A stretch of 42,500 nt of DNA. Source: a bacterium. Its GTDB lineage: Bacteria > SZUA-79 > Acidulodesulfobacterales > Acidulodesulfobacteraceae. The stretch lies in NCBI GenBank assembly GCA_021789605.1, contig JAJYJI010000012.1, positions 1 to 42,500 on the forward strand. Reading direction: 5' to 3'. A program made the translations under genes and the position numbers. Below the pieces are notes generated by a model that worked only from the letters and a program-made list of their open reading frames with translations, did not search any database and was not told the origin of the DNA. This document shows positions 5,080 to 36,653 of the stretch, one piece after another; the stretch's first letter is position 1; every line of letters begins with the position of its first letter.

Positions 5080-6162
5080 ATGGCGGATAAAAAGAATACT
5101 TTAAGCGGCGGCGATGAAATAAAACTTAAAAGCCGCATAAATAAAGAGGAGGCGCTGTCCATGCTTAAAAGCGAAAGCCTTTTAGGCATTGGAAGAATCG
5201 CCGACGGCGTCAGAAAATCCAAACATTCCGAAAATACGGTTACTTTTATTATAGACAGAAACATTAATTACACCAACGTTTGCGTTTCGGAGTGCAGATT
5301 CTGCGCATTTTACAAAAAAAAAGGAGCCGCCGGCGCTTACATACTGTCAAAAAAAGAAATATTCGATAAAATAAAAGAAACCAAAGACCTTTCGGGAACG
5401 CAGATTCTTCTTCAGGGAGGTTTAAATCCGGATATAGGCATAGGTTATTATTTAGACCTTTTGAGTGAAATAAAGGAGAAATTCGATATCCATATCCATG
5501 CCTTTTCGCCGCCCGAGATAATTTATATGGCGGATGCTAACGGCATTACCGTAAAAGAAACCGTGCGCCTTTTAAAAGAAGCGGGTCTTGGCTCCGTACC
5601 GGGCGGCGGGGCGGAAATATTAGTTGACAGGGTCAGAAAAAAAATCAGCCCCAATAAAATCGACAGCGAAAAATGGCTCGGCGTGATGGAAGAAGTTCAC
5701 AGGGCCGGATTAAATTCTTCGGCGACTATGATGTTCGGAACGGTGGAAACGGACGAAGACATCATTGACCATCTCGTCAAACTGCGCCGCCTGCAGGACA
5801 GAACCGGCGGGTTTAAAGCTTTTATTCCGTGGAGTTTTCAAAGCAAAAATACCGCCCTTAATCCTCGCGGAGTTTACGGGCATTATTATTTAAAGGTTCT
5901 CGCGATTTCGAGGATTGTTTTGGATAATTTCGACAACATTCAGGCTTCGTGGGTTACTCAGGGGGCAAAAATGGGACAGGTCGCTTTAAGTTTCGGCGCA
6001 AACGATATGGGTTCCACCATGCTCGAAGAAAACGTCGTCAAAGCCGCCGGAACTTCCAATAACGCGGTCGATGAAAAAACGATGGTAAAACTTATTAAAG
6101 ACGCGGGATTTATTCCGGCGCAAAGAGCCAATAATTATGAAATAATAAAATTTTATAAATAA
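5080..6162 (+). CDS. mqnC: Cyclic dehypoxanthinyl futalosine synthase MqnC (radical SAM)
   Basis: A 360-residue radical SAM enzyme. The iron-sulfur ligands are Cys68, Cys72 and Cys75 in CVSECRFC, preceded by DRNINYTNV. MqnC hallmarks follow: LQGGLNPDIGIGYYLDLL, HIHAFSPPEI, SVPGGGAEILVDRVRKKISP, FKAFIPWSFQ, NIQASWVTQGAKMGQ and GANDMGSTMLEENVV. MqnC cyclises dehypoxanthinyl futalosine in the futalosine route to menaquinone. The other mqn genes are not in the window. It begins 27 bases after fliI, so it may be read with it. It is a distant paralogue of the CofH-like protein at 25568, which provides a useful internal comparison. Confidence 0.92.
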   Translation: MADKKNTLSGGDEIKLKSRINKEEALSMLKSESLLGIGRIADGVRKSKHSENTVTFIIDRNINYTNVCVSECRFCAFYKKKGAAGAYILSKKEIFDKIKETKDLSGTQILLQGGLNPDIGIGYYLDLLSEIKEKFDIHIHAFSPPEIIYMADANGITVKETVRLLKEAGLGSVPGGGAEILVDRVRKKISPNKIDSEKWLGVMEEVHRAGLNSSATMMFGTVETDEDIIDHLVKLRRLQDRTGGFKAFIPWSFQSKNTALNPRGVYGHYYLKVLAISRIVLDNFDNIQASWVTQGAKMGQVALSFGANDMGSTMLEENVVKAAGTSNNAVDEKTMVKLIKDAGFIPAQRANNYEIIKFYK

Positions 6163-11445: not shown

Positions 11446-11958
11446 ATGCCTGAAACAATAACGAAACGATTTATTAACCATTTCAATGCGGTTAACGATT
11501 TTTCCCTTAGGGTTGCTTCTAAAATTCAAACGGAAATTTACTGGAAAAGGTTGCCGGCGAAAAAATCCGGAATAAAATGGATAAAGATTTTTATGCCGGC
11601 TTTAGCGTTCGGCTCTGTTTTGTCATTGAATTCGCTCTCGTTCGCGGTTATTAATTTAAATCAGGGTTCGCTTGGAATCGGCGCCTCCGGCATTTTAAAC
11701 GAGGCCGCCACGTGGATTTGTTACCGGCTTGCCCCGGCAACGCTTACGCTCGGACTCGTCAAAGGATTTTACGACATAAAACAGCATAAACCCGATGCGG
11801 CAAGAAAAGCTTTTATAACTGCGGCCGCGGGAACGGGGGTTATGCTTGCGCCGACGATAACGGGGGCGATACTCGGCATCGTTCAGAGCGCCGGAGGCTC
11901 TACCGGCGGAATTAATATGGGAGGCGGAAACGGCGCGACCACGGTCGGACAGCCTTAA
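11446..11958 (+). CDS. VirB2/TrbC-like T4SS pilin candidate
   Basis: 170 residues. A basic N-terminal region of about 45 residues precedes a first hydrophobic segment (IFMPALAFGSVLSLNSLSFA) resembling a long signal sequence. Two more hydrophobic segments follow (about 78-100 and 125-150), and the tail is rich in Gly. A signal-like segment, two membrane helices and position just before a VirB3-like and a VirB4 gene are the pattern of VirB2/TrbC pilins. Similarity at residue level is weak, so the call rests mostly on topology and place in the operon. It is longer than usual pilins, mainly through the N-terminal extension. Confidence 0.6.
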   Translation: MPETITKRFINHFNAVNDFSLRVASKIQTEIYWKRLPAKKSGIKWIKIFMPALAFGSVLSLNSLSFAVINLNQGSLGIGASGILNEAATWICYRLAPATLTLGLVKGFYDIKQHKPDAARKAFITAAAGTGVMLAPTITGAILGIVQSAGGSTGGINMGGGNGATTVGQP

Positions 11959-12009
11959 TTAATTTTTATCTTGTAGGAATTAAACATCTTATTCGCAGGG
12001 GAGGGCTTT

Positions 12010-12327
12010 ATGAAAGACGTTCAGCGCAGATACGCCGAATTTAAAATTTACAGCGGAATACACGGCAAAGTAACGAGATTCGGCTTGGAAATTTACGACT
12101 GGGGACTGTTTATATTTATTACGATGCTTTCGATTCTTTTGTTAAAAAAGCTCATTGTTTTTGCAATATTAGCCGACGCGGCCGTTTTAATTTTTTTAAA
12201 AAAATATAAAAAAAACAAGCCGGATTTTTATACGAGTTCGCTGCTGTCGTATATATTTATTAAAAAAGAGCTTTTCGTTCTAGAGCCGGAAAAAGACGAG
12301 AGGGTAAATATCCGAAATGCTGTTTAA
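12010..12327 (+). CDS. VirB3/TraL-like T4SS membrane protein
   Basis: 105 residues with two adjacent hydrophobic segments (about 36-65, WGLFIFITMLSILLLKK then LIVFAILADAAVLIFL). A KKYKKNKPDF stretch follows, like the K.KK.KP region after the membrane pair of F-type TraL, and then a short cytoplasmic tail. It lies directly before virB4 and overlaps it by 11 bases, the standard virB3-virB4 arrangement. In these systems VirB3 anchors or works with the VirB4 ATPase at the inner membrane. The start ATG 12010 has GGGGAGGG upstream. Confidence 0.65.
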   Translation: MKDVQRRYAEFKIYSGIHGKVTRFGLEIYDWGLFIFITMLSILLLKKLIVFAILADAAVLIFLKKYKKNKPDFYTSSLLSYIFIKKELFVLEPEKDERVNIRNAV

Positions 12328-14959
12328 TCCGGTTTTAAAAAAAATAAATTTAAAGGAATCGTTTAACAATTACGTTAACCTTTTATGCATTAAGGACAAC
12401 ATAGTTATAGGAATCGACGGTTCTCACACCATAGGCTTCCGCGTAAAAGGCTTCGATTATTTTCTATCGGGAAACGAAGCGATTAACGATGCGGCATACG
12501 CAAACGACCTTCTTTTAAATCTTTTAGACGAAAACATAAGCCTTCAATGGATTTACAAAATAGAGGACAGGAACGAAGAATTTATATCTGATTACGTCCA
12601 ATCTTCCGTTCCTCCCGAGGATTTTGCCTATATAAAAGAAAAGAAAATTAAATATCTTAAAGGAAGGCCTATAAAAAAAATTAAAATTTATCTTTTCTGT
12701 TCCGTTAACGGGGTAAGGCCTTCTAACGGAAGCGGCGGAGGTTTTTTATCAAAGCTTCCAGATTATGCTTCGGATATCTTTAAAATGAAAATTTTCGGCG
12801 CGGTCAACTCTATTTCGAGAAAAAGCGCCGCGGAGGACATGGATTTTATCGAAAAAAAGTTTGTGAACATAGAAAATAACTTAAGTTTTATATCCTCTAG
12901 ATTAAATCTTGCGTTAAAAAGAATGAACAATCAGGAGCTTACCGAATATTTTTACCGCGAGTTAAATCCCGGGAGGTCGGCATCCGTCGGATGCCCCGCA
13001 TGGGAGAAAATGTCCGAAGAAGCGACTTTCAGGAGCCAGCTGATGTATTCTTGCGCCGAAATTAAAAGGGATTATTTTTATACGGACGGTTATTATTATA
13101 AATTTATAAATATGCATAGATTGCCCGCGCATACCGATTCGTTCGGCATAGCCGCGCTTCTGGATATTAAAGGCTGCGTTGCGGCGGACGCGGAAAAGAG
13201 CGGAAAATCCGGATATCCGGAAAATGACGGAAATTACGGCGGCTTTTCCTCCGGCGGCGGTTTTTTTCCTTACGATATTTCCGTTGCCTTCAATATTCCG
13301 GAACAGGATAAGACGATTGAAAAGATACAGACGGATAGGAATATAAAGGCAAGCCTGACCGAAGCGGTCGGCGGGGGTTACAGCGATTATAAAGGGATGA
13401 ATATAACTAAACAGTTAGACGATTTTTTGGAATCCGTTTCTAAAATGCAAAAAAAAATCGTCGAATTTTCTTTATGCGCAAGAATTAAATCCAAAAATCC
13501 CGAAGAATTAAACGTTCGAGCGGTAAAACTGCTCGAATCGTTTAAAAACTATAACGGAATGGAAGGAATCGTCGATAACATGGAGCATCATAATCTTTTC
13601 CTTTCGTTCCTTCCCGGGCAATCAGGTTTCAACAGAAGGTTTAAAACGTCTATTTCTTCTCCGGCGGCCGCTTTTTTCCCCCTGCACGAAGGTTTCGGAG
13701 GGACGGAAAAATGCGCCATACCTTTAATTAACGACAGGGGGGAAGCGGTAAAATTGGACCTTTATAATAACCGGCTTCCCTCGAAACACGGAATAGTTTT
13801 CGGCAAAACGAGAAGCGGAAAAGGATTTATGCTTAACGGCTTTCTGGCAAATTTCTATATTTCCGGAGGGAACTATCACATTATAGGGGTGGATATAGGC
13901 GGAACGTATAAAAAATTCTGTAAAATATTTAACGGGGATTATATAGAAATAGATTTGGAAGGAAGCTACTGCCTTAATCCCTTTCCTCCCAAAAAATATG
14001 CCGTAAAGACTATAAACGGAGAAGAAATATTCGACCCCGACATAATGGTATTTTTAACCGGAATAATAGGTTTGATGGCCGAACCGGAAAACAATCTGAG
14101 CCCTAACGATAAAACTATTATAATCCGTGCGATTCAGGCTTCGTACGACAGAATTTCGGACGGCGACGATATGCCTGTAATTTCGGACGTCAATAACGTT
14201 CTATTCGATTATAACGAAGCAAGGGATTCGGAGGATAAAAAAAGGGCGCTGGATTTGGGAAAGAATCTTTTCAGGTGGACGGACGTATCCTCTCCATACG
14301 AAATGCTGTTAAACAGAAAAAAAGGCATAGATATTAATAATAAAATAGCAATATTCGATTTGCAGAAGCTAAAGGGGCACGAAGAACTTCAAAAGGTTAT
14401 ATTTGCAATAATAAAAAATATTTCTTTCAAAAAAATGTACGATAAATCGGCTAAGGTTTTTTTCTTTTACGACGAATGCTGGGAGTTCATGAGCGACCCC
14501 AAGATTTCCGAACTGATTATGCATCTTTATAAAACTTCCGCCAAATGGGGCTCGATGGTCTGGAGCGTGACGCAGGAGCCCGGCGACCTCTTGAAAGCGG
14601 GAAACGCGGGCAGAAGCATCATTGAAAATTCTTCCGTAAAAATCTTCTGCCAATTAGACGGCGACGTTTCCGGAAACGATTTGTTGTCTTGCGGGCTTAA
14701 CGAAAAGCAGATAGACATAGTAAAAAATCTTAAAGTAGTAAAAGGGCATTACGCGGAATATTTTTTAAAATTCGGAAAAGATTCCTCGGTAATAAGAAAT
14801 TCACCCGACCCTTTTGAATACTGGCTTTGCTGTAAATCTTCGGAAGACGAAGAAATAGAGAAGCAGATAGAAGAAGCGTATCCGGAGAAATCTTTAAAGG
14901 AAAGGCTTTATATGCTTTCCGAAAAATATCCCAACGGGCCTTACGGAGTAGGAATATAA
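12317..14959 (+). CDS. virB4: T4SS ATPase VirB4/TrbE family
   Basis: 880 residues, the usual size of VirB4/TraC. The N-terminal half is the CagE/TrbE/VirB-type domain. The C-terminal half is the ATPase: Walker A GKTRSGKG at 496-503, then IIGVDIGGTYKKF, a Walker B strand KVFFFYDECWEF with Asp719 and Glu720, and a VWSVTQEPGDLL stretch typical of the family. VirB4 is the most conserved energiser of type IV secretion and is needed for pilus building and substrate transfer. It overlaps the VirB3-like gene, so they are translationally coupled. A 9-base tandem repeat follows its stop. Confidence 0.93.
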   Translation: MLFNPVLKKINLKESFNNYVNLLCIKDNIVIGIDGSHTIGFRVKGFDYFLSGNEAINDAAYANDLLLNLLDENISLQWIYKIEDRNEEFISDYVQSSVPPEDFAYIKEKKIKYLKGRPIKKIKIYLFCSVNGVRPSNGSGGGFLSKLPDYASDIFKMKIFGAVNSISRKSAAEDMDFIEKKFVNIENNLSFISSRLNLALKRMNNQELTEYFYRELNPGRSASVGCPAWEKMSEEATFRSQLMYSCAEIKRDYFYTDGYYYKFINMHRLPAHTDSFGIAALLDIKGCVAADAEKSGKSGYPENDGNYGGFSSGGGFFPYDISVAFNIPEQDKTIEKIQTDRNIKASLTEAVGGGYSDYKGMNITKQLDDFLESVSKMQKKIVEFSLCARIKSKNPEELNVRAVKLLESFKNYNGMEGIVDNMEHHNLFLSFLPGQSGFNRRFKTSISSPAAAFFPLHEGFGGTEKCAIPLINDRGEAVKLDLYNNRLPSKHGIVFGKTRSGKGFMLNGFLANFYISGGNYHIIGVDIGGTYKKFCKIFNGDYIEIDLEGSYCLNPFPPKKYAVKTINGEEIFDPDIMVFLTGIIGLMAEPENNLSPNDKTIIIRAIQASYDRISDGDDMPVISDVNNVLFDYNEARDSEDKKRALDLGKNLFRWTDVSSPYEMLLNRKKGIDINNKIAIFDLQKLKGHEELQKVIFAIIKNISFKKMYDKSAKVFFFYDECWEFMSDPKISELIMHLYKTSAKWGSMVWSVTQEPGDLLKAGNAGRSIIENSSVKIFCQLDGDVSGNDLLSCGLNEKQIDIVKNLKVVKGHYAEYFLKFGKDSSVIRNSPDPFEYWLCCKSSEDEEIEKQIEEAYPEKSLKERLYMLSEKYPNGPYGVGI

Positions 14960-14965
14960 ATAAAA

Positions 14966-15000
14966 TAAGATAAATAAGATAAATAAGATAAATAAGATAA
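14966..15000 (+). repeat. 9-base tandem repeat between virB4 and virB5
   Basis: TAAGATAAA is repeated three times with a fourth copy missing only its last base. It lies 6 bases after the virB4 stop and before the virB5 ribosome binding site (AAAGGAGG). The unit has stop codons (TAA, and TGA-free) in more than one frame. It looks like slippage-prone spacer DNA and may vary in copy number. Confidence 0.85.
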
Positions 15001-15027
15001 CGGCATATTATAAAAGGAGGAAAAATT

Positions 15028-16134
15028 ATGAACAATTCAAAGAAAAAAAATGTTTTAACCGCGTTTATAATTATATCAGTCTTGTGCGCATATCTTACGG
15101 GAATTTCCTATGGAAGCGGCATTCCCATACCCGACATAGGAAGCGTATCGAATCAGATTCAGTCGGTGGAAACTGCTGCAAGCGGAGCCTTCTCGGCTTT
15201 GCAGGGGCTTGCGGGAACGCTCGGATATGCGCCCGGCGCTTCCGGCGGACCCCTTTTTAATCCCGGTCCGGGACTTTCCGAAGCAATGGCCACGGCGGAT
15301 AAGCTTGCCGCAGATGTTTCCAGAATGCAGGAATATTATCAAAATATCGTAATTAATTTCGATAAATTGACGCATCTCGTCGATTCCGCGGAAAATGCCG
15401 CCAACAGCATAAACACCCTGAATAATCGGCTCGGCGCCGCATTCGTCCAAATTCCTCAGGATTTAACCGCAAGCGACGTTCAGCCGTCGAGCCCTTCGGA
15501 TATACTTTCCGGCATTAATACCGAGGCCGCGGAATTTCAGAATCTCGGCTCCGCCGCCGGCGGGTTTGAACCGCAAAGTTTCGTTTCGGGCTATTCGCAG
15601 GCATCCGGCGCGGGGTTAAACAAAAATGTCATGGAAAACGGTTCCGGATTGTTTGCCGAAGGAGCTATTTTTAATTCCGACGGCAACTCTGGAGAGGCAA
15701 ATCAGAAAACAAACTGTTTTTCCTACGATAACGGCTATTACTTCGACGCTAGCGGAAATCCGGTAGGCGGATGCACCGATTTTGTCGGCGGATTCGGGGC
15801 GGACGTCGCGGCCTCCGGCCTTTACAGCGCCGGGATTTCAGCTGCGAGGGCGCACAAAGCCGAACTGGAAGGCGACGAATTTATGCGGGAAATTACCGGC
15901 GGCGCGCTAAAAAACAGCACAAATTATTATGCGTACCAGAGTTCCGTTCTAACCATAATGGCGGAGGAAAATGCGGCAAGCTTAAAGAATTTGGGGTATA
16001 TGGAGAGCCAGCTGAAGCAGATGGAGCTGTCGAAATCGGCGGAGGCAATAGAAAAAGAGCATATAGGCGCGGTAATTATGCCGCAGACCGATGCTTCGCC
16101 GGGTTTAAATTTTTACGATAAAACGACTATGTAA
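15028..16134 (+). CDS. VirB5/TrbJ-like T4SS protein, C-terminus possibly altered
   Basis: 368 residues with an N-terminal signal peptide (NVLTAFIIISVLCAYLTGISYG). The mature part is rich in Ala, Gly, Ser and Gln with predicted helices (LSEAMATADKLAADVSRMQEYYQNIV, VDSAENAANSINTLNNRLG). This is the pattern of VirB5/TrbJ minor pilin or periplasmic proteins. A Cys pair (TNCFSYDNG...GGCTDF) may form a disulfide. Position after virB4 and before virB6 supports the call. The ribosome binding site AAAGGAGG precedes ATG 15028. The frame ends at 16134, but the next frame continues with a helix-like Gln-rich tail to 16227, suggesting that a frameshift may have shortened the protein. Confidence 0.7.
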   Translation: MNNSKKKNVLTAFIIISVLCAYLTGISYGSGIPIPDIGSVSNQIQSVETAASGAFSALQGLAGTLGYAPGASGGPLFNPGPGLSEAMATADKLAADVSRMQEYYQNIVINFDKLTHLVDSAENAANSINTLNNRLGAAFVQIPQDLTASDVQPSSPSDILSGINTEAAEFQNLGSAAGGFEPQSFVSGYSQASGAGLNKNVMENGSGLFAEGAIFNSDGNSGEANQKTNCFSYDNGYYFDASGNPVGGCTDFVGGFGADVAASGLYSAGISAARAHKAELEGDEFMREITGGALKNSTNYYAYQSSVLTIMAEENAASLKNLGYMESQLKQMELSKSAEAIEKEHIGAVIMPQTDASPGLNFYDKTTM

Positions 16135-16335
16135 GGGATAACGCGGACTTAAGACAGATAAATCAGACGGGCAAGCAAAATAGCGAAGTTATGCGAGTTT
16201 ATGCTATGTCAATAATGCAGGTTTAAATAAAATTTAAAAAGCAAAGCTGTATCGGGCAAAACTAAATATAATACATGAAAAATAATATGCGCAATTTTAT
16301 ATAAATAATTAAAACATTAATTAATGTAATTAATT

Positions 16336-17463
16336 ATGAATATTTACTTAAAGTTTATTATAAAGTATTTCATAATACAGGCATGCATAGTTTTAGTATT
16401 TTATTTTATTCTACAAATGCCGGCTTACGCCGGCGCCTTAACAGGCGCCCCGGCTTCAGCCGCCGCCGGGCAGAATAATAGCTCCCTTAACGAATCGTCT
16501 ATTTCCATATCGAAATTAAGCAACGGGGAAGAGCTCGATATGCTTTCCATAGACTCTATCCCTTCGGCTCTTAACGGCGATTCCGCAATGAGCGTTTTTG
16601 TATCTTATATGTTTTATTTTTTGTTTTCTCTCGGAATCGTGCTGTCATTTTTTGAAGGATACTCTTCCGAATTGGCCGGCAGACCGTTTAGCTATTACGG
16701 ATTGTTTTTAAGAACTGCTTTAATAGCGACCGGCTTTCTTTCGTGGAAACAGACGGGCATGTCTAATTTTGCTCAGCTCATACTGACTTTTGCCGATAAA
16801 ATCCAGCTTTATCTGATAAATCAAAATGTTTGCGGTATAAGCGCGTCGGTATCCCAGATAGTTTCGTCGATATCGGGGAGCCTGCACTCCGTTACCATTC
16901 CGACGGTTTCGTCAAACGGAACCGCGTCGGTGCAAAAGGGCTGGAACCTTAATCCGGTTTCGTGGTTTGCGGGAGCGGTCCATGCTATAACCGGCGCGGT
17001 CTTAATGGGAATATTATGGTTTTTATTCAACGTCTTATATTTGGTAATCCAGCTTTTTATGGCAATAATCCAGCTTATATTTTTAGGATTGTTGTTCTCT
17101 TTGTGTCCGGTTATACTGGGATTGGAATCTATACCGTATGCAAGGGGAATATTCGGAAAATGGATGAAAATGTTTATAGAGATTTCATTCTGGGGGGTAA
17201 TGGCCGCCTTAGAACAGCTTATTTTTTTTACTATTCTTGGGAAAATGGTTTCGATTAATCTTGGAACGTCGGAAACAGGCGCGGGCAATATCATAGGAGC
17301 ATTTACCTTCGCCGAGGCCGTTACCGTTTTTATAATAATGATAGCCATTAACGTGTCGGTTCCTTTTATAGCTGGAAAATTATTGGACGGCATAAGCGGG
17401 GAAGCCCACGAAAAAATTAAGACGGTAAAGGTTAAAATGACGGGCGCGGTCAATATGCCATAA
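16336..17463 (+). CDS. VirB6/TrbL-like polytopic T4SS protein
   Basis: 375 residues. An N-terminal hydrophobic segment looks like a signal or anchor (FIIQACIVLVFYFILQMPAYA). About six to seven more hydrophobic segments follow, including VSYMFYFLFSLGIVLSFFEG, LMGILWFLFNVLYLVIQLFM, IIQLIFLGLLFSLCPVILGL and ISFWGVMAALEQLIFFTILG. The GLLFSLCPVILGLESIPYARGIFGKWMK region resembles the conserved core of VirB6/TrbL inner-membrane channel proteins. Its place between virB5 and virB8 agrees. It is preceded by about 200 bases with no intact gene. No close family signature beyond this can be stated from the sequence alone. Confidence 0.75.
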   Translation: MNIYLKFIIKYFIIQACIVLVFYFILQMPAYAGALTGAPASAAAGQNNSSLNESSISISKLSNGEELDMLSIDSIPSALNGDSAMSVFVSYMFYFLFSLGIVLSFFEGYSSELAGRPFSYYGLFLRTALIATGFLSWKQTGMSNFAQLILTFADKIQLYLINQNVCGISASVSQIVSSISGSLHSVTIPTVSSNGTASVQKGWNLNPVSWFAGAVHAITGAVLMGILWFLFNVLYLVIQLFMAIIQLIFLGLLFSLCPVILGLESIPYARGIFGKWMKMFIEISFWGVMAALEQLIFFTILGKMVSINLGTSETGAGNIIGAFTFAEAVTVFIIMIAINVSVPFIAGKLLDGISGEAHEKIKTVKVKMTGAVNMP

Positions 17464-17518
17464 ACATTCGACTTGGTAAATTAACGGCAGGGCAAAATAT
17501 AAAGGGATAAAATTACTT

Positions 17519-18184
17519 ATGGGCGGCCTTTTAAATTGCAAAGACGGCTACAAAAAAAGAAACGGCAGGCTTTTTTATGAAATATGGGGGGACTTGGAAG
17601 CCCAGAACGCGACCCTTAAAATCGTAATAATCCTGATGTCTATAATAACCGTTATATCGCTTTTTACGTCCTTTTATACTTATAAAGCAAATAGAATTCC
17701 CGTAGTCATAAGAGTCGACGATGCCGGAAAGGCGGAGGTTTTAAGGAACCTGCCTTTCGACAATAAAGTCGGAACCGGCGAAATAGCTTATTTCTCCAAG
17801 AGCTTCGTAAGGGAATTTACGGGTTTTAATTCGTTAATGATTAAAACCGAGCTTTCGAGGGCGCTAAATAAAATGTCGCCGGAATACGGAAAAAAAATGT
17901 TAATTGCAATAATAAGGGACAAGTTCGTCCAAAAAATGGAAAAAGCCGATATCACCTCAAAAATTAAATTTAAAAAAATAAAGTTGATAAGTCAGACCGT
18001 AAATCACGACGAATTAAAACTGTATGTTATCAGGACGGTTGTTTCGGATTCCGATTCGGCCGTTAAAAACAGCTCGGCTTACGAGGATAAGCTGATTTTA
18101 AAAAGAATAAAAAGAAGCATCCAGTATCCTTTCGGCCTCGAAGTAGTTTATTTCAGCAGTTTAAAGCTCGGAGGGGCGCAATGA
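17519..18184 (+). CDS. VirB8/TrbF-like T4SS protein
   Basis: 221 residues. A short cytoplasmic lead ending RLFYEIWGDLEAQNATLK is followed by a single membrane segment (IVIILMSIITVISLFTSFYTY). A periplasmic domain of about 165 residues begins RIPVVIRVDDAGKAEVL. This is the layout of VirB8/TrbF, an inner-membrane assembly factor that contacts VirB10 and VirB9. The stop overlaps the start of the VirB10 gene by four bases (ATGA), so the two are coupled. The ATG has AAAGGG upstream. Confidence 0.78.
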   Translation: MGGLLNCKDGYKKRNGRLFYEIWGDLEAQNATLKIVIILMSIITVISLFTSFYTYKANRIPVVIRVDDAGKAEVLRNLPFDNKVGTGEIAYFSKSFVREFTGFNSLMIKTELSRALNKMSPEYGKKMLIAIIRDKFVQKMEKADITSKIKFKKIKLISQTVNHDELKLYVIRTVVSDSDSAVKNSSAYEDKLILKRIKRSIQYPFGLEVVYFSSLKLGGAQ

Positions 18185-19419
18185 ATAGAGGTTTTTTGAA
18201 TAGCGGGCATATAATAAAGGAAGGGGGGGACGGAACTACTGCCGCCGCAAATTCTGAGCATAATAACGGCGATGCGGGTTTTAAGGAAGATATTTACAAT
18301 TCCGAAATGCCGGTAAAAAATAAAGTTTCGAATAAATATTTTTTTAGATTTTTCAGACTGCCTTTAATAATTGCCGTTATTTTAATAGCGGCGGCTTTGT
18401 CGTTAAAATTTATATTTTTTAATAGCCGAGGGCGCGTTCCCGAAAAAAAACATTTAAAAAAGAATGCGGATATATCCGATAAAAAAAGATTTTCTTCGTC
18501 AGTTTTTAATTACGCCGCTCTAAGAGGCGCAAACGTGGATAAAAAAAGGGCGGCGAAAGCGGAACCGGGCAAATTTAACGATAAGTTCGATAAAGAAACG
18601 AAAAGATTAAGAGACAATATAAAATTCGCCGGAGGCGGCAGAATTTTACCGATTAGGAATAGCCGTACGCATAACATATCAAAAAAAATGGTCGTCTTTA
18701 TAAAGGCAAGCTACGGCGAGAAAATTTTAAAAAAGGAAAGGGGCGACGGCGCGGATAATACTATGCAAAAACGGGTAGAAAAACTGAAAGAAACCTCCGC
18801 AGAATACAAAAGGACGAACGAAGATGGAGACGCCGTCATAATGCCTGAAGGAACCGTGCTTGACGCATATACTAAATATAAGATATTTTCGTACGACGCC
18901 GCCGTTCCCGTTATCGCAATCCTATCGGAGAACTGTTTTTACCGCGGAAGGGCAGTTTTAAAAAAAGGCGATAAATTTTTCGGAACCGTCAGCGTAAAGC
19001 ATTCTTTAAATAGGTTAAACATAAATTTCAATAAAATTATAGAAACTTCCGGAAAATCGGTCGATATAGACGCGATAGCGATGATGCCCGACGGTTCGGG
19101 AGGGGTCAAAGGCGACGTTCACCGCCATTACGCGGGAAGCATTCTTGCGTCCATAGCGGAGGGAGTTGTCGGGGCGGCGTCGATTTTTGCGGGCGGCGGC
19201 TCCGGCGTTAATTCTTCCGAACCATACACATTCCAGAATCAAGTAAGAGAAAACGTAGCGCAAAACGAACTTAACTCTGCCAGAAACGGTATAAACGGCT
19301 ATTCCGGCGCAAATTCCGGCGTAAGCATAACCCTGCCGGAAGATACCCCTATTAAGCTCATGCTGCTTAAACCTTTATATAGAAATCAAATCGAAAAAAA
19401 CCGGAATTTACGAAAATGA
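18181..19419 (+). CDS. VirB10/TrbI-like T4SS core protein
   Basis: 412 residues. A cytoplasmic N-terminus of about 55 residues and one membrane segment (PLIIAVILIAAALSLKFIFF) come first. A highly charged linker follows, and then the TrbI/VirB10 beta-barrel domain from about residue 220: VIMPEGTVLDAYTKYKIFSYDAAVPVIAI, LKKGDKFFGTVS, a hydrophobic SILASIAEGVVGAASIFAG antenna-like region and LPEDTPIKLML near the end. VirB10 spans from inner to outer membrane and senses ATP use by the secretion ATPases. The linker is lysine-rich rather than proline-rich, which differs from Agrobacterium VirB10. Confidence 0.85.
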   Translation: MNRGFLNSGHIIKEGGDGTTAAANSEHNNGDAGFKEDIYNSEMPVKNKVSNKYFFRFFRLPLIIAVILIAAALSLKFIFFNSRGRVPEKKHLKKNADISDKKRFSSSVFNYAALRGANVDKKRAAKAEPGKFNDKFDKETKRLRDNIKFAGGGRILPIRNSRTHNISKKMVVFIKASYGEKILKKERGDGADNTMQKRVEKLKETSAEYKRTNEDGDAVIMPEGTVLDAYTKYKIFSYDAAVPVIAILSENCFYRGRAVLKKGDKFFGTVSVKHSLNRLNINFNKIIETSGKSVDIDAIAMMPDGSGGVKGDVHRHYAGSILASIAEGVVGAASIFAGGGSGVNSSEPYTFQNQVRENVAQNELNSARNGINGYSGANSGVSITLPEDTPIKLMLLKPLYRNQIEKNRNLRK

Positions 19420-19473
19420 GGAATAAGCGGATAATTCAAACCATTACGCCGTTTTAAAACGCTTAGGGATATA

Positions 19474-20361
19474 TTGCAATATATGGCTGATTTAAAAATT
19501 AAATCCGTTCTCAATAAACTTGCCGATATTAAAAAAAGTTTATGCTCGGCTTTTTTGGAAAGAAACGATGCGATAGATATGATTATTCTTGCTGTTATTT
19601 CAAAAAAACACTCTATACTGATAGGCGAACCGGGGCTCGCCAAAACGGCTATGCTGAAGGCTTTCGTCGAACGCATAAACGGCCTTAAACTTTTTGACTT
19701 TCAAATGACGCCGGCTACCGATATAAAAGAGCTTATGTCTAAAAACATAAGGAATAAAATAGGCATAGACAATTGCGATTTGGCCCTGATAGACGAATTT
19801 TTTAAAGGCCCCCATGCTACGCTTAATTCTCTTCTGGCTATTATGAACGAAAGAATAGCGTATGTTCCGGAACCGCGCAAAATACCCCTGATAAGCCTTT
19901 TTGCCACCTCGAACGAAAGGCCGGATAAATCTTCGGACGCAAATCTTTTACCCCTTTACGACAGATTTTTATTCAGGAAAGAGATACTGCCGGTAAGAGA
20001 CGAACGAAATTTCAGAAAACTGCTGGAATTAAAAGATGGAACGGGGTTCGAGAAAACGTCTTTAAATAAAAACGATTTAGCTGATTTAATCTCCGCCGGC
20101 GAAACAACGGACATTCCGGACGAGATTTTTAATTCGATATATTCCGTAAGGGAAGAGTTAAGGAACAAGCAGGTAATCGTTTCGGACAGAAGGTGGAGGG
20201 AAACTATTAAAATACTTAAAGCGAACGCCATGTTAAACGGCAGGGATGCCGCCGGCAAAGAAGACATTAAAATTCTCGAATCGTCCTTATGGACGTACTA
20301 TTCCGACATAAGGGCAGTCAAAAATATCATAAGAAAGGAAACCGGGGGCTATGCCGGATAA
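19474..20361 (+). CDS. RavA/MoxR-type AAA+ ATPase inside the T4SS locus
   Basis: 295 residues, a single AAA+ module plus lid. Walker A is GEPGLAKT (51-58), Walker B is LALIDEFFKG with Asp107 and Glu108, and sensor 1 is LFATSNERP. The segments NSLLAIMNERI and LYDRFLFRKEI match the RavA branch of MoxR ATPases. RavA is about 500 residues and works with a VWA-domain protein (ViaA); neither its C-terminal part nor a VWA gene is present here. MoxR proteins act as chaperone-like remodelers. The gene lies between virB10 and virD4, where virB11 is found in Agrobacterium-type loci. It has none of the VirB11 sequence features. The start is TTG 19474 (AGGG at 19465) or ATG 19483. Confidence 0.85.
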   Translation: MQYMADLKIKSVLNKLADIKKSLCSAFLERNDAIDMIILAVISKKHSILIGEPGLAKTAMLKAFVERINGLKLFDFQMTPATDIKELMSKNIRNKIGIDNCDLALIDEFFKGPHATLNSLLAIMNERIAYVPEPRKIPLISLFATSNERPDKSSDANLLPLYDRFLFRKEILPVRDERNFRKLLELKDGTGFEKTSLNKNDLADLISAGETTDIPDEIFNSIYSVREELRNKQVIVSDRRWRETIKILKANAMLNGRDAAGKEDIKILESSLWTYYSDIRAVKNIIRKETGGYAG

Positions 20362-20375
20362 CCCGCCGCCGCAAC

Positions 20376-20423
20376 CTATGAACCTATAAAGCCCTGAATC
20401 TATGAATCTATGAACCTATGAAC
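20376..20423 (+). repeat. CTATGAAC/T octamer repeats at the virD4 start
   Basis: CTATGAAC at 20376-20383, CTATGAAT at 20400-20407, then CTATGAAC at 20408-20415 and 20416-20423. The last copy contains the virD4 ATG (20418). Each earlier copy opens a micro-frame ATG-AAY-CTA-stop: ATG 20378 ends in TAA, and ATG 20402 and 20410 end in TGA. The TGA of each late copy overlaps the next ATG. No Shine-Dalgarno sequence precedes virD4, so initiation may use re-starting from these frames (inference). Confidence 0.75.
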
Positions 20424-22244
20424 AGAATATTTATTTTTAAATTAACGGCATCGTTTTTATTGTTCGTTATCGAACTTTTTTACCTATTTTTTATTTCTGG
20501 GTTTTTTTTCGATAAAAGCGTGATATATTATTTCGGTTTTTTTGGCGGCGTAAAGCTTGCTTTTATATTACTCCCTTTGTCCACATGGCTTGTTTCCTCT
20601 TATGCGTTGTCCAGCATGCTTTATAATAAGTATCTTTATTTTAAACCGGAAGACGATAAAAGAAAGAAAATGAAAACGCCGGGCAGAACCGTATCGCAAA
20701 AAAGCGGTTTAATATGGCCGGAAAGCGGCGGCCTTCAGCTGGCGATAGGGGAGATTCACGAAAAAGACGGAACGGTAAAAGAAAAGCCTGAATGGCTTAT
20801 TATGGACAAATACGGCCTTTATACCGGACTGATTATTTTAGGCGCTACCGGAACCGGAAAAACAAGCGCCTGCGCTTACCCGTTTCTCGACCAGCTGGCA
20901 AGATATAAAAGAGACGAACCGGAAGAAAGAATAGGCGGTTTGATATTGGACGTAAAGGGAGATTTCTGGAATGAGGCTTCGCTGATATTGAAACGCAACG
21001 GAAGAGAATCCGACATAGTAATAATAGAGCCGGGTTCCGGCTATTATTTTAATCCGGTAAATTATCCGCATTTAGATTCTAAAATTATAGCCGAAAGATT
21101 ATATTCCGTCCTCGAAAATATGAATTCCAACGACGGAAGACAGGACAGTTTCTGGAAAGATAAATCCATAAACCTTTTATCCCATTCTATAAACCTTGTT
21201 AGGTCGTGTATGGGATACGCAACATTGAGCGACGTATATGAAATGATATCCGATGAAATAGAATTAAAAAATTTGTTAGGTTACGCGGAAAACCTGATAA
21301 AAACTTATTCCAAGACGGGCCGCGGCCGCGATAATCAAACTTCCGGACGGGATTTAAATTCAGATTTAAACGAAATAAAACTCTCGGCGGCATATTTCAA
21401 TGGAAGCGATTATGCCGGACTTGACGAAAGGACAAAGACTATTATAAAAAGCGAATCTTTAAGGGTATGTTCGGATTTTATCAAACCCGTCTTTAAAAAC
21501 GCTTTTTGCGCACCGGCGGAAAAAATTAATTTTACGGGATTTCAGGACGCAGTAAATAAAGGAAAAATCGTAATCCTAAATATGCCGGAATCAAAATACG
21601 GATTAACGGGAAAGATAATAGGCATTATGTTAAAACTCGATTATTTCAGGACGGTTTTAAACCGCGTTTATATGTCCTTAATAGATAAATCGGTCAACGT
21701 CGAGAGGCCTGTCCTATTTTTATGCGACGAATATCAAAATTACGTAACTTCCGGCGACATCGAATCGGACGCCGAATTCTTTGCGAGATGCAGGCAGTCT
21801 AAAGCGATTAACATCGTTCTTTCGCAGAGTTACAGTTCCTTAAAGCTAAAGCTCGGTTCCGAAGAAAAGCTTAATTCTTTGATAGGCAACATAAGGTCTT
21901 CCATATGGCTTTCCCTTAGCGACGACTATTCTAAAGAAAAGGCCTCCAAGATATGCGACAAGGAATATAAATTAAAAATAACCGAAAATATAACCGAGCA
22001 GGACGAAGGCGCTTCTTTCAATCCATACGTAGGCGGGCTTCTGTCGGACGACAATACTATATCTTCAGGAACTACAAAGACTTACGAAAAAATGCCCTCG
22101 TTCGATACCGACGATTTCGCAGGTTTAAAATTAAATCAGGCCGTTTACAGAATATATTCGGGAACGGAAGTCAAAGGGCCGGGAATAGTGTATCTTCATC
22201 CTATATACAGGCGGAAAACGAAAAGCTATTTCGATAAAGATTGA
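20418..22244 (+). CDS. virD4: T4SS coupling ATPase VirD4/TraG family
   Basis: 608 residues. Two N-terminal membrane segments (about 5-30 and 36-65) are followed by the coupling-protein ATPase: Walker A GATGTGKT at 142-149, GGLILDVKGDFWNEA, a Walker B strand VLFLCDEYQNY with Asp437 and Glu438, and RQSKAINIVLSQSYSSL. VirD4 proteins bring substrates (DNA-relaxase complexes or proteins) to the channel. Its presence shows the locus is a complete transport system rather than a pilus alone. A Gly/Thr-rich stretch before the C-terminus (TISSGTTKTYEKMPSFDTDDF) is as in TraG/VirD4. No relaxase gene is nearby. Confidence 0.92.
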   Translation: MNRIFIFKLTASFLLFVIELFYLFFISGFFFDKSVIYYFGFFGGVKLAFILLPLSTWLVSSYALSSMLYNKYLYFKPEDDKRKKMKTPGRTVSQKSGLIWPESGGLQLAIGEIHEKDGTVKEKPEWLIMDKYGLYTGLIILGATGTGKTSACAYPFLDQLARYKRDEPEERIGGLILDVKGDFWNEASLILKRNGRESDIVIIEPGSGYYFNPVNYPHLDSKIIAERLYSVLENMNSNDGRQDSFWKDKSINLLSHSINLVRSCMGYATLSDVYEMISDEIELKNLLGYAENLIKTYSKTGRGRDNQTSGRDLNSDLNEIKLSAAYFNGSDYAGLDERTKTIIKSESLRVCSDFIKPVFKNAFCAPAEKINFTGFQDAVNKGKIVILNMPESKYGLTGKIIGIMLKLDYFRTVLNRVYMSLIDKSVNVERPVLFLCDEYQNYVTSGDIESDAEFFARCRQSKAINIVLSQSYSSLKLKLGSEEKLNSLIGNIRSSIWLSLSDDYSKEKASKICDKEYKLKITENITEQDEGASFNPYVGGLLSDDNTISSGTTKTYEKMPSFDTDDFAGLKLNQAVYRIYSGTEVKGPGIVYLHPIYRRKTKSYFDKD

Positions 22245-25232: not shown

Positions 25233-25282
25233 TTTATAATAATTTTATTATATTTTATTATTTTATATTATTTTTTAAAACA

Positions 25283-25385
25283 GGGGTGCCTTTAAAAACA
25301 TGGCTGAGAGCCGAGTTTAAAAACTGGCAGGTTAAAAACTCGCAACCCTTAGAACCTGAATACGGATAATGCCGGCGCAGGGAGG
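25283..25385 (+). ncRNA. TPP riboswitch (THI element) aptamer
   Basis: All conserved blocks are present in order: GGGGTGCC near 25283, GGCTGAGAG at 25302, ACCCTTAGAACCTGA at 25345-25359, and GGATAATGCCGGCGCAGGGAGG at 25364-25385. The variable P3 helix (GAGTTTAAAAAC ... GTTAAAAACTC) is formed by bases 25313-25341. It senses thiamine pyrophosphate and lies upstream of the CofH-like-thiS-thiG operon. The intrinsic terminator at 25490 is its likely output, so transcription would stop when TPP is high. Confidence 0.95.
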
Positions 25386-25414
25386 CAGGAAATCTTCAAT
25401 ATAATATATCATAT

Positions 25415-25438
25415 ATCGTCGGCCCGTAAAGCGACGAT
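25415..25438 (+). promoter_or_regulatory. Putative antiterminator hairpin of the TPP riboswitch
   Basis: ATCGTCG (25415-25421) and CGACGAT (25432-25438) form a 7-pair stem. The 10-base loop contains CCCGTA (25423-25428), the same hexamer as in the 3' arm of the terminator (CCCCGTA). The loop could therefore pair with the terminator 5' arm TACGGGG and block its folding. This is inferred from complementarity only. Confidence 0.4.
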
Positions 25439-25489
25439 AAAAAGGCTTGTTTTTCTCCGTTTCCCCTCCTTTTTCCGCCCGTCCGCCTG

Positions 25490-25528
25490 TACGGGGACTA
25501 TTAACCTTGAACCCCGTATTTTTTTTTG
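25490..25528 (+). terminator. Riboswitch intrinsic terminator
   Basis: TACGGGG (25490-25496) and CCCCGTA (25512-25518) form a perfect stem followed by an unbroken run of about ten T. It lies between the TPP aptamer and the first gene, 40 bases before ATG 25568, as expected for a transcription-attenuating riboswitch. Confidence 0.88.
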
Positions 25529-25567
25529 CTTTAAATAAGATTTAATTAGCGAATATTTTCGATTTTT

Positions 25568-26668
25568 ATGGCAAATTTAGATTCAATACTTAAAAGAGCT
25601 TTGTCTTTCCAAAGATTGGACGACGGAGTTCTGCTTAATTTATTGGAAATTGGGGGAGACGAAGAAACGCGGAATATTATCGAGGCGGCCGATATTTATA
25701 ACCGGAAAATAAATTCAGATAAAGTATCGTACGTCGTCAACAGAAATATAAATTTTACCAATATTTGCGGTTTAAACTGCAAGTTTTGCGGTTATAAAAG
25801 AACTGAAAAATCCAAAGACTCGTTTTTATTGGATTACGACGCGATATTAGAAAAAATACGTGAGGGGAAAGACAAAATAGGCATCGACGAAATATGCGTA
25901 ACGGGAGGAATATATCCAGCCTTAAAACCAGATTATTATTTTAATTTGATTAAAACCGTCAGGGATAATTTCAGCGATTTGCATATCCATGCCTTTTCTC
26001 CGCAGGAAATTTACGAACTTTCGAAAGCTACGGAAAAATCTTACCGCGCCGTCATTTTAAAATTAATCGATATGGGGCTTGATTCCATGCCGGGAACCGC
26101 GGCGGAGATTTTAGCCGAAGATACGCGAAAAAAGATTTGTCCGGAAAAAATAAGCGCGCCTGTATGGGTAGAAATTATTAAAACAGCCCACAAAATAGGG
26201 CTCAAAACATCGGCTACGGTTCTTTTCGGCCATATAGAAACTAGCCTCGATTTAGTATCGCATTTAAGCCTGTTAAGGCAAATTCAGGATGAAACCCGGG
26301 GGTTCACCGAATTTATCGCCCTGCCTTTCGTTCCGTTCAAAACGTCTTTGGCAAAAAAAATAGATTTAATGCCCGCGCGGAACAGGATATTCAGGTTTTA
26401 TGCCGTTTCGAGGCTTTATCTGGATAATTTTAAAAATATTCAGACCAGCTGGCCCAAAATAGGAACCGATGCGGCCGTAAAATCTCTTTTCTGCGGCGTT
26501 AACGATTTCGGCGGAACTCTGATGGAAGAAAATATAACCAAAAGCGCCGGGGGGAAATTCGGAGAATATCTGTCGGAAACGCAAATAAAGGACTTTATAA
26601 GAAAAGCGGGGAAACTTGCGGTCAGAAGGGATACCCTGTATAACCCTGTTTATGAAAAAAAACTATGA
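25568..26668 (+). CDS. CofH-like radical SAM enzyme in thiamine operon
   Basis: 366 residues. The radical SAM cluster ligands are Cys67, Cys71 and Cys74 in CGLNCKFC, preceded by NRNINFTNI. CofH (FO synthase subunit 2) hallmarks are LHIHAFSPQEI, DSMPGTAAEIL, TSATVLFGHIET, GFTEFIALPFVPFKT, NIQTSWPKIG and GVNDFGGTLMEENITKSAG. CofH cleaves tyrosine and joins its hydroxybenzyl part to a flavin precursor in F420 synthesis. No other F420 gene is seen, and this gene sits behind a TPP riboswitch and four bases over thiS. ThiH, the usual anaerobic enzyme here, also cleaves tyrosine to the glycine imine needed by ThiG. The inferred role is a ThiH replacement. Some automatic pipelines may call it MqnE or MqnC. 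Confidence 0.85.
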   Translation: MANLDSILKRALSFQRLDDGVLLNLLEIGGDEETRNIIEAADIYNRKINSDKVSYVVNRNINFTNICGLNCKFCGYKRTEKSKDSFLLDYDAILEKIREGKDKIGIDEICVTGGIYPALKPDYYFNLIKTVRDNFSDLHIHAFSPQEIYELSKATEKSYRAVILKLIDMGLDSMPGTAAEILAEDTRKKICPEKISAPVWVEIIKTAHKIGLKTSATVLFGHIETSLDLVSHLSLLRQIQDETRGFTEFIALPFVPFKTSLAKKIDLMPARNRIFRFYAVSRLYLDNFKNIQTSWPKIGTDAAVKSLFCGVNDFGGTLMEENITKSAGGKFGEYLSETQIKDFIRKAGKLAVRRDTLYNPVYEKKL

Positions 26669-26865
26669 AAATAGAAATCAACGGCAAAGAATTAGATGTT
26701 TCAAGAGGCATAACGGTTCAAAATTTAATAGACGAACTTAAATTGAACGTTAAAAGCACCGCCGTGGCCGTTAACAGGTCTATAGTTTCTAAAAGCGCAT
26801 ATGCCGGCTTTCTTTTAAACGAAAACGACAAAATCGATTTGGTAAGTATTGCGCCGGGCGGCTGA
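26665..26865 (+). CDS. thiS: Sulfur carrier protein ThiS
   Basis: 66 residues with a ubiquitin-like fold: [12 protein letters not shown] at the start, a central [27 protein letters not shown] and the invariant C-terminal Gly-Gly (SIAPGG). The Gly-Gly end is adenylated and loaded with sulfur, then delivered to ThiG for thiazole formation. It overlaps the CofH-like gene by four bases (ATGA) and precedes thiG. No ThiF/MoeB-type activating enzyme is in the window; it must be encoded elsewhere. Confidence 0.93.
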
Positions 26866-26933
26866 TTTTTAATTTTTATTTATTGCTTAATTATGATAAT
26901 ATTGATAACTTTAATAATTGGGGGAATATGTTA

Positions 26934-27740
26934 ATGGAAATTACGGAAAACGCGGGTAAAGGTTTTGAGGGCGACATCCTTAAAATCGGCAGATATACTT
27001 TTAAATCCCGCCTGCTGATAGGGACGGGGAAATATCCCGATTTTCAAACTATGAAAGAGGCCGCTGACGCTTCCGGCGCCGAGATAATAACCGTTGCCGT
27101 AAGAAGAATAGATTTTAGCGCAAAAGAAAATATGCTGTCTTATATAGACCTAGACAAATATGTTCTTTTGCCGAATACCGCCGGATGCTATACGGCTGAA
27201 GACGCGGTGAATACGCTCTTGCTTGCCAGGGAGCTCGGCGTTTTTAAAACGGATTTAGTAAAACTAGAAGTTATAGGCGACCGGAAAACGCTTTATCCAG
27301 ACAACGAGGAGCTTATTAAGGCCGCAAAAATACTTGTAAAAGAGGGTTTTACCGTCATGCCTTACATGATGGACGACCCGGTTCTTGCTAAAAAGCTTGA
27401 AGATGCAGGTTGTCCCGTAGTTATGCCTCTTGCCTCGCCCATAGGCTCCGGCCTTGGAATCAGAAATCCTTATAATATCAAAATAATAAAAGAAACGGTG
27501 TCTGTTCCGGTCATAGTGGACGCCGGAGTTGGAACCGCTTCCGACGCCTGCAAAACTATGGAGCTCGGCGTGGACGGAATTCTTATAAATACGGCAATCG
27601 CGGGAGCCGATAATCCAGTTTGGATGGCGGCGGCGATGAAAAACGCCGTGGAAGCCGGCAGGCTCGCATATTTGTCCGGACGCATTCCCATGAGGCTTTA
27701 CGCTCAGGCTTCGACGCAAATGGAGGGGATAGTATTTTGA
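26934..27740 (+). CDS. thiG: Thiazole synthase ThiG
   Basis: 268 residues from the preferred start. A TIM-barrel with [21 protein letters not shown], the Schiff-base Lys110 in [27 protein letters not shown] and [31 protein letters not shown]. ThiG condenses 1-deoxy-xylulose 5-phosphate, the sulfur of ThiS thiocarboxylate and dehydroglycine to the thiazole carboxylate. The frame stays open up to TTG 26883, but ATG 26934 has GGGGA at 26921 at good spacing; ATG 26928 is also possible. Its stop overlaps the start of the next gene. Confidence 0.94.
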
Positions 27741-28544: not shown

Positions 28545-29227
28545 GTGGCTAAAAATTCGACGTCGTCGGCGGATAAAGCCCATGGAACCGAGCGCGTCGT
28601 CGAATTCGGAACAAAATCCGTCCACGGCGTTGCGGAAGAGATGAAAAATATAGAAAAGACCGTTTCGGCGGTTTCCGCCACCATAACGGAACTCGGTTCT
28701 TCTTCGGAAAAAATAGGGGAAATAACCGGCGTTATAAACGACATAGCCGACCAGACTAACCTTCTCGCCTTAAACGCCGCCATCGAAGCCGCCAGAGCCG
28801 GAGAACAGGGAAGGGGTTTGCGGTGGTTGCGGACGAAGTAAGAAAACTTGCCGAAAGGACTACCAAAGCGACCAAAGAAATAGAATTTATGATTCTTAGC
28901 ATACAGAAATCTACGGAAGATGCTGTAAAATCTATGCACGGGACGAAAGAAAACGTATCCAAAGGAACGGAAGTCGCGCAAAAGTCCGCCGACGCCATAT
29001 CCAATATAAATGCCCTTATGGGCAAACTGAAGGAAATGATAACCCAGATTGCCGCCGCTACCGAAGAGCAGTCGCAGACGAGCGAAGAGATATCGCGCTC
29101 GTCCGAAGAAATTATTAAATCTCAGGATAACGTTTCCAGCGCGGCGAAACAGGTTACGTCTTCTTCCGAAGAACTTTCTAATTTTGCGGCGGAATTGATA
29201 AAAACTGTGAATACATATAAGATTTAA
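28545..29227 (+). pseudogene. Broken methyl-accepting chemotaxis protein signalling domain
   Basis: Two frames together encode an MCP cytoplasmic domain. The first (28545-28841) has [18 protein letters not shown] and the tip [19 protein letters not shown]. The second (from about 28817) continues [16 protein letters not shown] to the end at 29227. At 28815-28820 the bases GGTTTG need one more T to keep [11 protein letters not shown] in frame, so one base is missing. The N-terminal sensor, membrane and HAMP parts are also missing; upstream of 28545 the frame is AT-rich and reaches a stop at 28512. The piece is most likely a decayed remnant. A sequencing error could explain the shift but not the missing front half. 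Confidence 0.8.
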
Positions 29228-36558: not shown

Positions 36559-36653
36559 TGGCGGAAGCGTACGGGAATCGAACCCGCCTTGCCCTTATGG
36601 GGGCAACAGTTGATTTGAAGTCAAAGAGAGGCACCAGCCTTCCGATCGCTTCC
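36559..36653 (-). tRNA. selC: tRNA-Sec (anticodon TCA)
   Basis: A 95-base tRNA on the minus strand with all tRNA-Sec hallmarks. It begins GGAAGCGA and ends ACGCTTCC-GCCA, with the CCA encoded. The anticodon loop CTTCAAA (anticodon TCA) is closed by TTGA/TCAA. The extra arm is long (TTGCCC-CCATAA-GGGCAA, six pairs), and the T loop is TTCGATT on a five-pair stem. The acceptor has seven clear pairs and an A-A at the eighth position. It reads UGA as selenocysteine, so the genome should also hold selA, selB and selD. A hairpin with a TATAAAT/ATTTATA stem and a T-run lies downstream at about 36518-36556. Confidence 0.93.

Follow-up and report, generated by a model that had tools for sequence, protein, structure and literature searches.

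Why should a gene related to CofH, a subunit of FO synthase, stand between a TPP riboswitch and the thiazole genes thiS and thiG? The question is raised by a stretch of 42,500 nucleotides (the window) from a genome of the Acidulodesulfobacteraceae that comprises 2.0 Mb in 87 contigs and is 99% complete with 5% contamination. ThiG is usually said to receive its glycine imine from one of two enzymes, ThiH or ThiO; the second, a glycine oxidase, is a flavoprotein of another fold that meets the same need in the pathway. CofH, too, releases 2-iminoacetate from tyrosine. ThiH converts tyrosine to p-cresol and dehydroglycine and hands the latter to ThiG, while HydG, also a radical SAM enzyme, cleaves tyrosine to dehydroglycine and makes the CO and CN ligands for hydrogenase (PMC9046217). 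FO synthase uses tyrosine (PMC12855090) and two SAM (PMC8571402). The THI4 thiazole synthase also proceeds via glycine imine, which is bound in its structure (PMC8454699); THI4, however, replaces ThiG itself, whereas ThiG is present here. From the sequences analysed we conclude that a CofH paralogue has probably been co-opted in this family as a tyrosine-cleaving enzyme that supplies ThiG with 2-iminoacetate.

The main text of a paper on Candidatus Acidulodesulfobacterales names thiM and iscS as thiamine genes and does not contain the words thiH, menaquinone or F420 (PMC6776010). The earlier note on this DNA knew of no description of such a route, and the literature that we searched, which lay mostly outside the subscription journals, showed none in which a homologue of CofH takes part in making thiamin. 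The enzyme family and the pathway are both known, and it is their pairing that is new.

The TPP riboswitch operon and its surroundings

The elements of the operon, together with a second CofH-family gene that lies in the window outside it, are as follows.

5080 to 6162, plus strand: mqnC, the second CofH-family gene (489.6 bits against a cut-off of 428.1)
25272 to 25400, plus strand: TPP riboswitch aptamer (RF00059, 53.4 bits, E 7.5e-10)
25490 to 25527, plus strand: terminator-like hairpin, seen by eye, with a 7-bp stem and a 15-nt loop, then nine T
25568 to 26668, plus strand: gene for a CofH-family radical SAM enzyme of 366 residues, the thi-linked CofH (assigned from profile matches, residues and tree)
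26665 to 26865, plus strand: thiS, sulfur carrier with a Gly-Gly end (TIGR01683, 59.1 bits against a cut-off of 37.45)
26928 to 27740, plus strand: thiG, thiazole synthase (PF05690, 365.6 bits)

This order, proposed in the earlier note from the letters of the DNA, is confirmed and recurs in relatives beyond the window; that a CofH-family gene overlaps thiS and is followed by thiG is borne out by the profile matches and by an overlap of four bases. The start of thiG, an ATG after GGGGG, was picked by eye, and the protein-family searches used 26937-27740. The gene after thiG is, from its by-eye label, pseudouridine-synthase-like. The proposal that the window holds no other F420 gene stands in that there is neither a CofG over the cut-off nor a CofD; there is, however, a further CofH-family gene, which is mqnC.

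The aptamer of the window scores slightly below the RF00059 gathering score of 54.3 and was missed by a default scan, a shortfall that we infer to be due to its long P3 arm. Relatives were sampled as 30 genomes of the family, the present one included, all of them drafts of 59-100% completeness. In 22 of the others a copy above the gathering score stands at the corresponding operon (before thiS-thiG in genome G020), and the match in the window is therefore not a chance one; the aptamer recognized upstream of the operon in the first reading is upheld. In total, 27 TPP riboswitch matches occur in 26 of the 30 genomes, 22 of which have one above the gathering score. Twenty-five of the matches precede this operon, and the remaining two, both in G020, precede thiS-thiG and thiE-thiC. 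The four genomes with no match are three that also lack thiG and G018, in which the match to the CofH-family gene begins at position 225 of the contig. The hairpin with its run of T is likely to be the expression platform of the riboswitch. As a terminator it was recognized by eye, from its stem and nine T; a pattern scan that allowed loops of 3-8 nucleotides, shorter than the loop drawn by eye, returned none, and the leader folded no better than shuffled sequences (z -0.45; 60 of 200 shuffles as good).

Three other features of the window may be recorded. Positions 11446-22244 hold a block that resembles a conjugative type IV secretion module, in which by-eye labels from the translations include a VirB4-like ATPase, VirB6-, VirB8- and VirB9-10-like proteins, a VirD4/TraG-like coupling protein and a MoxR-like ATPase. 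A selenocysteine tRNA scoring above the Rfam gathering score lies on the minus strand at 36563-36653, and the organism therefore probably makes selenoproteins. At 28545-29227 the signalling part of a methyl-accepting chemotaxis protein, recognized by eye, is divided between two reading frames and lacks an N-terminal part; this split gene is a remnant or an assembly error.

Identity and descent of the thi-linked protein

The thi-linked protein scores 393.3 bits against the TIGR03551 profile of CofH, above the cut-off of 374.1, and 406.3 bits against PRK07360, also a CofH profile, below the cut-off of 426. It occupies the position of ThiH beside thiG and thiS, and the substrate and product proposed for it would equal those of ThiH. 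Unlike ThiH, however, it reaches only 22.2 bits against TIGR02351, for which the cut-off is 380, and its C-terminal domain is CofH_C, not BATS; indeed the sole match to BATS (PF06968) in its genome is BioB, so the thi-linked protein has no such domain. A profile of 21 CofH-family rows, 16 of them thi-linked, gave 41.5 bits with HydG, 25.9 with ThiH and 362.7 with MqnE.

In a search of its own genome with TIGR00423 three proteins were recovered, namely the thi-linked protein, the MqnC of the window and, on contig 8, MqnE (466.7 bits against a cut-off of 434.55). The organism has two enzymes of the futalosine route to menaquinone, MqnC and MqnE. Their presence, and membership of the same superfamily, might suggest that the thi-linked protein is a third enzyme of that pathway. 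Both enzymes, however, are already there above their own cut-offs, whereas the thi-linked protein falls below both (354 bits with TIGR03699 for MqnC, cut-off 428.1, and 321.7 bits with TIGR03700 for MqnE), lies outside the clades of both in the tree and has residues of the CofH type. We regard a futalosine enzyme as exceedingly improbable and reject it on these profile scores, the tree and the residues. In another locus of the collection (L004) an MqnE gene stands in tandem with a gene for a UbiX-family prenyltransferase.

The residues were compared in 23 thi-linked, 22 CofH, 13 MqnE and 10 MqnC rows. Eight sites set CofH apart from both MqnE and MqnC (F63, C110, T177, A178, E248, K297, L318 and G332), and all 23 thi-linked rows carry the CofH letter at every one of them. 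At eleven other sites a letter conserved in CofH (at least 80% of rows) is replaced by a different one in the thi-linked rows (at least 90%). These changes include F76Y, just past the cluster-binding cysteines, and Q112T, ahead of the GG motif, Q112 being present in 21 of the 22 CofH rows and in all ten of MqnC. We infer from this pattern that the handling of tyrosine has probably been retained in the thi-linked protein and that the site of the second substrate has been altered. A further change, V296P, was rejected as a marker of thiamin-linked CofH, as the CofG-linked CofH of locus L135 also carries it.

Descent was examined with a carefully built tree, its 60 proteins drawn from the 74 rows of a first tree, from which 13 relatives of retained rows and one long-branched CofG outgroup row had been dropped. 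The 16 thi-linked rows form a single clade with support of 100/100, a grouping that the earlier note had asked to have checked for sequences linked to the TPP riboswitch, with the CofH proteins of G215 and G070 as sister group (support 96/87). MqnC and MqnE form separate clades. The deep forks among CofH are poorly supported (38/3 to 90/91), and forcing the 21 other CofH rows into one clade costs 25 units of likelihood, a weak rejection (p 0.029). The idea that the sister proteins of G215 and G070 are orphans, suggested by the lack of a CofG nearby, was dropped on finding an unlinked CofG in both genomes; the two are treated as having FO enzymes, although a CofD match is absent in G215. The protein of locus L078, which a partial CofG precedes, belongs to the F420-type CofH. 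On this evidence the thi-linked enzyme is most likely CofH by descent. The earlier note had named three findings that together would speak against its reading, one of them a position of the protein inside genuine CofH; it indeed falls among the F420-type CofH, yet in a clade of its own. Because of this grouping, 'co-opted CofH paralogue' is the right wording, and not a new enzyme family.

Linkage to thiG and the genes not found in the family

thiG and the thi-linked CofH gene are both present in 27 of the 30 family genomes and both absent from the other three (G008, G015 and G024, which are 85-86% complete); the single match of the CofH family listed for G008 is MqnE, and the single one listed for G015 is MqnC. 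In 26 of the 27 the two genes lie less than 500 bases apart on one strand, as cofH-thiS-thiG in 19 genomes and with thiG before cofH in seven, and from these two orders it follows that the neighbourhood has been rearranged yet kept. In the exception, G020, the cofH gene is about 36 kb from thiS-thiG on the same contig and adjoins neither of the two riboswitches. A scan of named genomes gave 41 loci: in every one of the 21 at 62% identity or more, thiS and thiG adjoin the gene; the remaining 20 are one CofG-linked CofH and 19 MqnE or MqnC. Relatives of the protein in these genomes include those of isolate SZUA-79 (71% identity) and of Candidatus Acididesulfobacter diazotrophicus (65%), which is listed under Candidatus Acidulodesulfobacteriota; the genome of the window appears to be a member of that group as well. 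Outside the family, ThiG occurs with a CofH-family match in at least 43 genomes (among the matches listed, which extend down to 326 bits, and read by eye), of which only G085 has thiG and a CofH-family gene close together on one strand; in G101 some 3 kb separate thiG from the mqn genes, which are on the opposite strand. Second copies of thiS-thiG, on contigs of about 6.2 kb that start at thiS, were seen in two assemblies (L129, contig 11 of G004; L130, contig 34 of G010) and are perhaps strain variants.

Linkage and riboswitch indicate thiamin, but not which step of its synthesis, and as the clade has residues of its own it could be argued that the enzyme plays some other part, such as cleaving a different amino acid or catalysing a step elsewhere in the thiazole or pyrimidine branch. 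This is quite unlikely, as the gene stands at a gap in the ThiG pathway, the chemistry of CofH fits that gap and the CofH-specific residues have been retained.

That the operon lacks thiH and thiO had been noted at the outset, and the lack extends to the genome and to the 29 others of the family, in none of which was there a ThiH at 1e-20 or a ThiO over the profile cut-off. The ThiO profile gives partial matches in five of the 30 (72.7 bits at most), and a divergent ThiO or an as yet unrecognized enzyme may be the source of glycine imine in the family. Taken alone this absence is weak, since 33 of 80 ThiG genomes outside the family also have neither gene (see below), and for that reason it is linkage, co-presence and the riboswitch that carry the case.

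The F420 pathway was searched for in the family by means of CofG and CofD. No CofG over the cut-off (best match 63 bits against 213) and no CofD was found in any of the 30 genomes. As controls, the CofG search exceeded the cut-off in all seven comparison genomes, and the CofD search, which gave no match in G215, gave one in G085 and in 10 of the 14 named genomes. A complete F420 pathway, to which the earlier note had looked for evidence against its proposal, was thus not found. The thi-linked protein resembles the CofH subunit of FO synthase in passing the TIGR03551 cut-off, in its place in the tree and in all eight CofH-specific sites, and the first two of these points would suit a genuine CofH that serves F420 or FO and merely neighbours thiS-thiG. 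It differs from that subunit, however, in belonging to a genome with no CofG over the cut-off and no CofD, in sharing a TPP riboswitch operon with thiS and thiG, and in the residues of its own. Moreover, chance neighbourhood would sit poorly with adjacency in 26 of 27 genomes, in two orders, and with the absence of the gene along with thiG from three. A genuine F420 enzyme is very improbable, and was set aside because the family has neither CofG over the cut-off nor CofD.

Proposed reaction and the sources of glycine imine

The operon would make the thiazole half of thiamin and would be switched off by TPP, with the CofH paralogue in the place usually taken by ThiH or ThiO. The enzyme is proposed to cleave tyrosine, and the resulting 2-iminoacetate would pass to ThiG. 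It may now be a plain lyase that releases p-cresol, and no longer a transferase that acts on diaminouracil, a suggestion based on the missing CofG and on residue changes such as Q112T. The central proposal of the earlier note, that a CofH paralogue feeds dehydroglycine to ThiG, is supported by linkage across the family, co-presence with thiG, the TPP riboswitch and the enzyme's own residues, from which the reaction itself is predicted. It could be argued instead that the full CofH reaction has been kept, the hydroxybenzyl group from tyrosine being placed on diaminouracil, a precursor of riboflavin, and 2-iminoacetate feeding ThiG as the by-product, with the adduct wasted or otherwise used. Retention of all eight CofH-specific sites and passage of the TIGR03551 cut-off would agree with this, as would the CofH that stands beside thiG-thiE in G085, which retains Q112. 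Against it, however, no CofG over the cut-off and no CofD that could take up the adduct was found in any of the 30 family genomes, each thiazole made would cost a riboflavin precursor that ended as waste, and Q112T, F76Y and others are near-fixed at sites conserved in CofH. We therefore consider a complete CofH reaction unlikely.

ThiG genomes beyond the family were represented by 80 of 117, of which the last eight were picked deliberately, six because they have CofH. Over the cut-offs, ThiH was found in 28 of the 80, ThiO in 20 and neither in 33. Twenty-two of these 33 also lack an F420-type CofH, and in at least three (G043, G120 and G167) a ThiH/HydG-like gene of 288-322 bits adjoins thiG; other sources of glycine imine may exist. 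ThiH over the cut-off was found in none of the 16 genomes with CofH as against 28 of the 64 others (p 0.0007, uncorrected for kinship), and in the first 72, without the eight chosen ones, in none of 10 as against 28 of 62 (p 0.005, likewise uncorrected for kinship).

A comparable arrangement is that of G085, a genome of an unrelated lineage, in which contig 328 (locus L124) reads thiG-thiE-cofH and in which no ThiH was found at 1e-40 and no ThiO at 1e-25. A single clade of this CofH with those of the family was rejected (p 5e-7), the G085 protein lying elsewhere in the tree, which indicates that its cluster arose separately. G085 is the only genome of its taxonomic order in the sample, and its TPP riboswitch stands before thiC, not before the cluster. 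We treat G085 as no more than a lead: the contig with the cluster measures 4.2 kb, the assembly is broken into some 650 contigs, and elsewhere the genome encodes a fused CofGH, another CofG and a CofD. Cleavage of tyrosine of the CofH type could be a general third route to the glycine imine that ThiG uses, comprising the family paralogue, G085 and possibly the by-product of ordinary CofH in bacteria that make F420. Such a by-product might feed ThiG and would then explain why the sampled CofH genomes have no ThiH; so broad a role nevertheless seems doubtful.

As 33 of the 80 sampled genomes with ThiG lack both ThiH and ThiO at the cut-offs used, part of the pathway is unaccounted for. Should the co-option of a CofH paralogue be correct, a family that consistently uses this enzyme would add a third branch to the routes to glycine imine. 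It would also suggest how radical SAM enzymes take on new tasks, retaining the half of a reaction that breaks the bond and giving up the transfer, and it would serve as a warning that a standard family model, TIGR03551, labels this gene an F420 enzyme in organisms that lack CofG and CofD.
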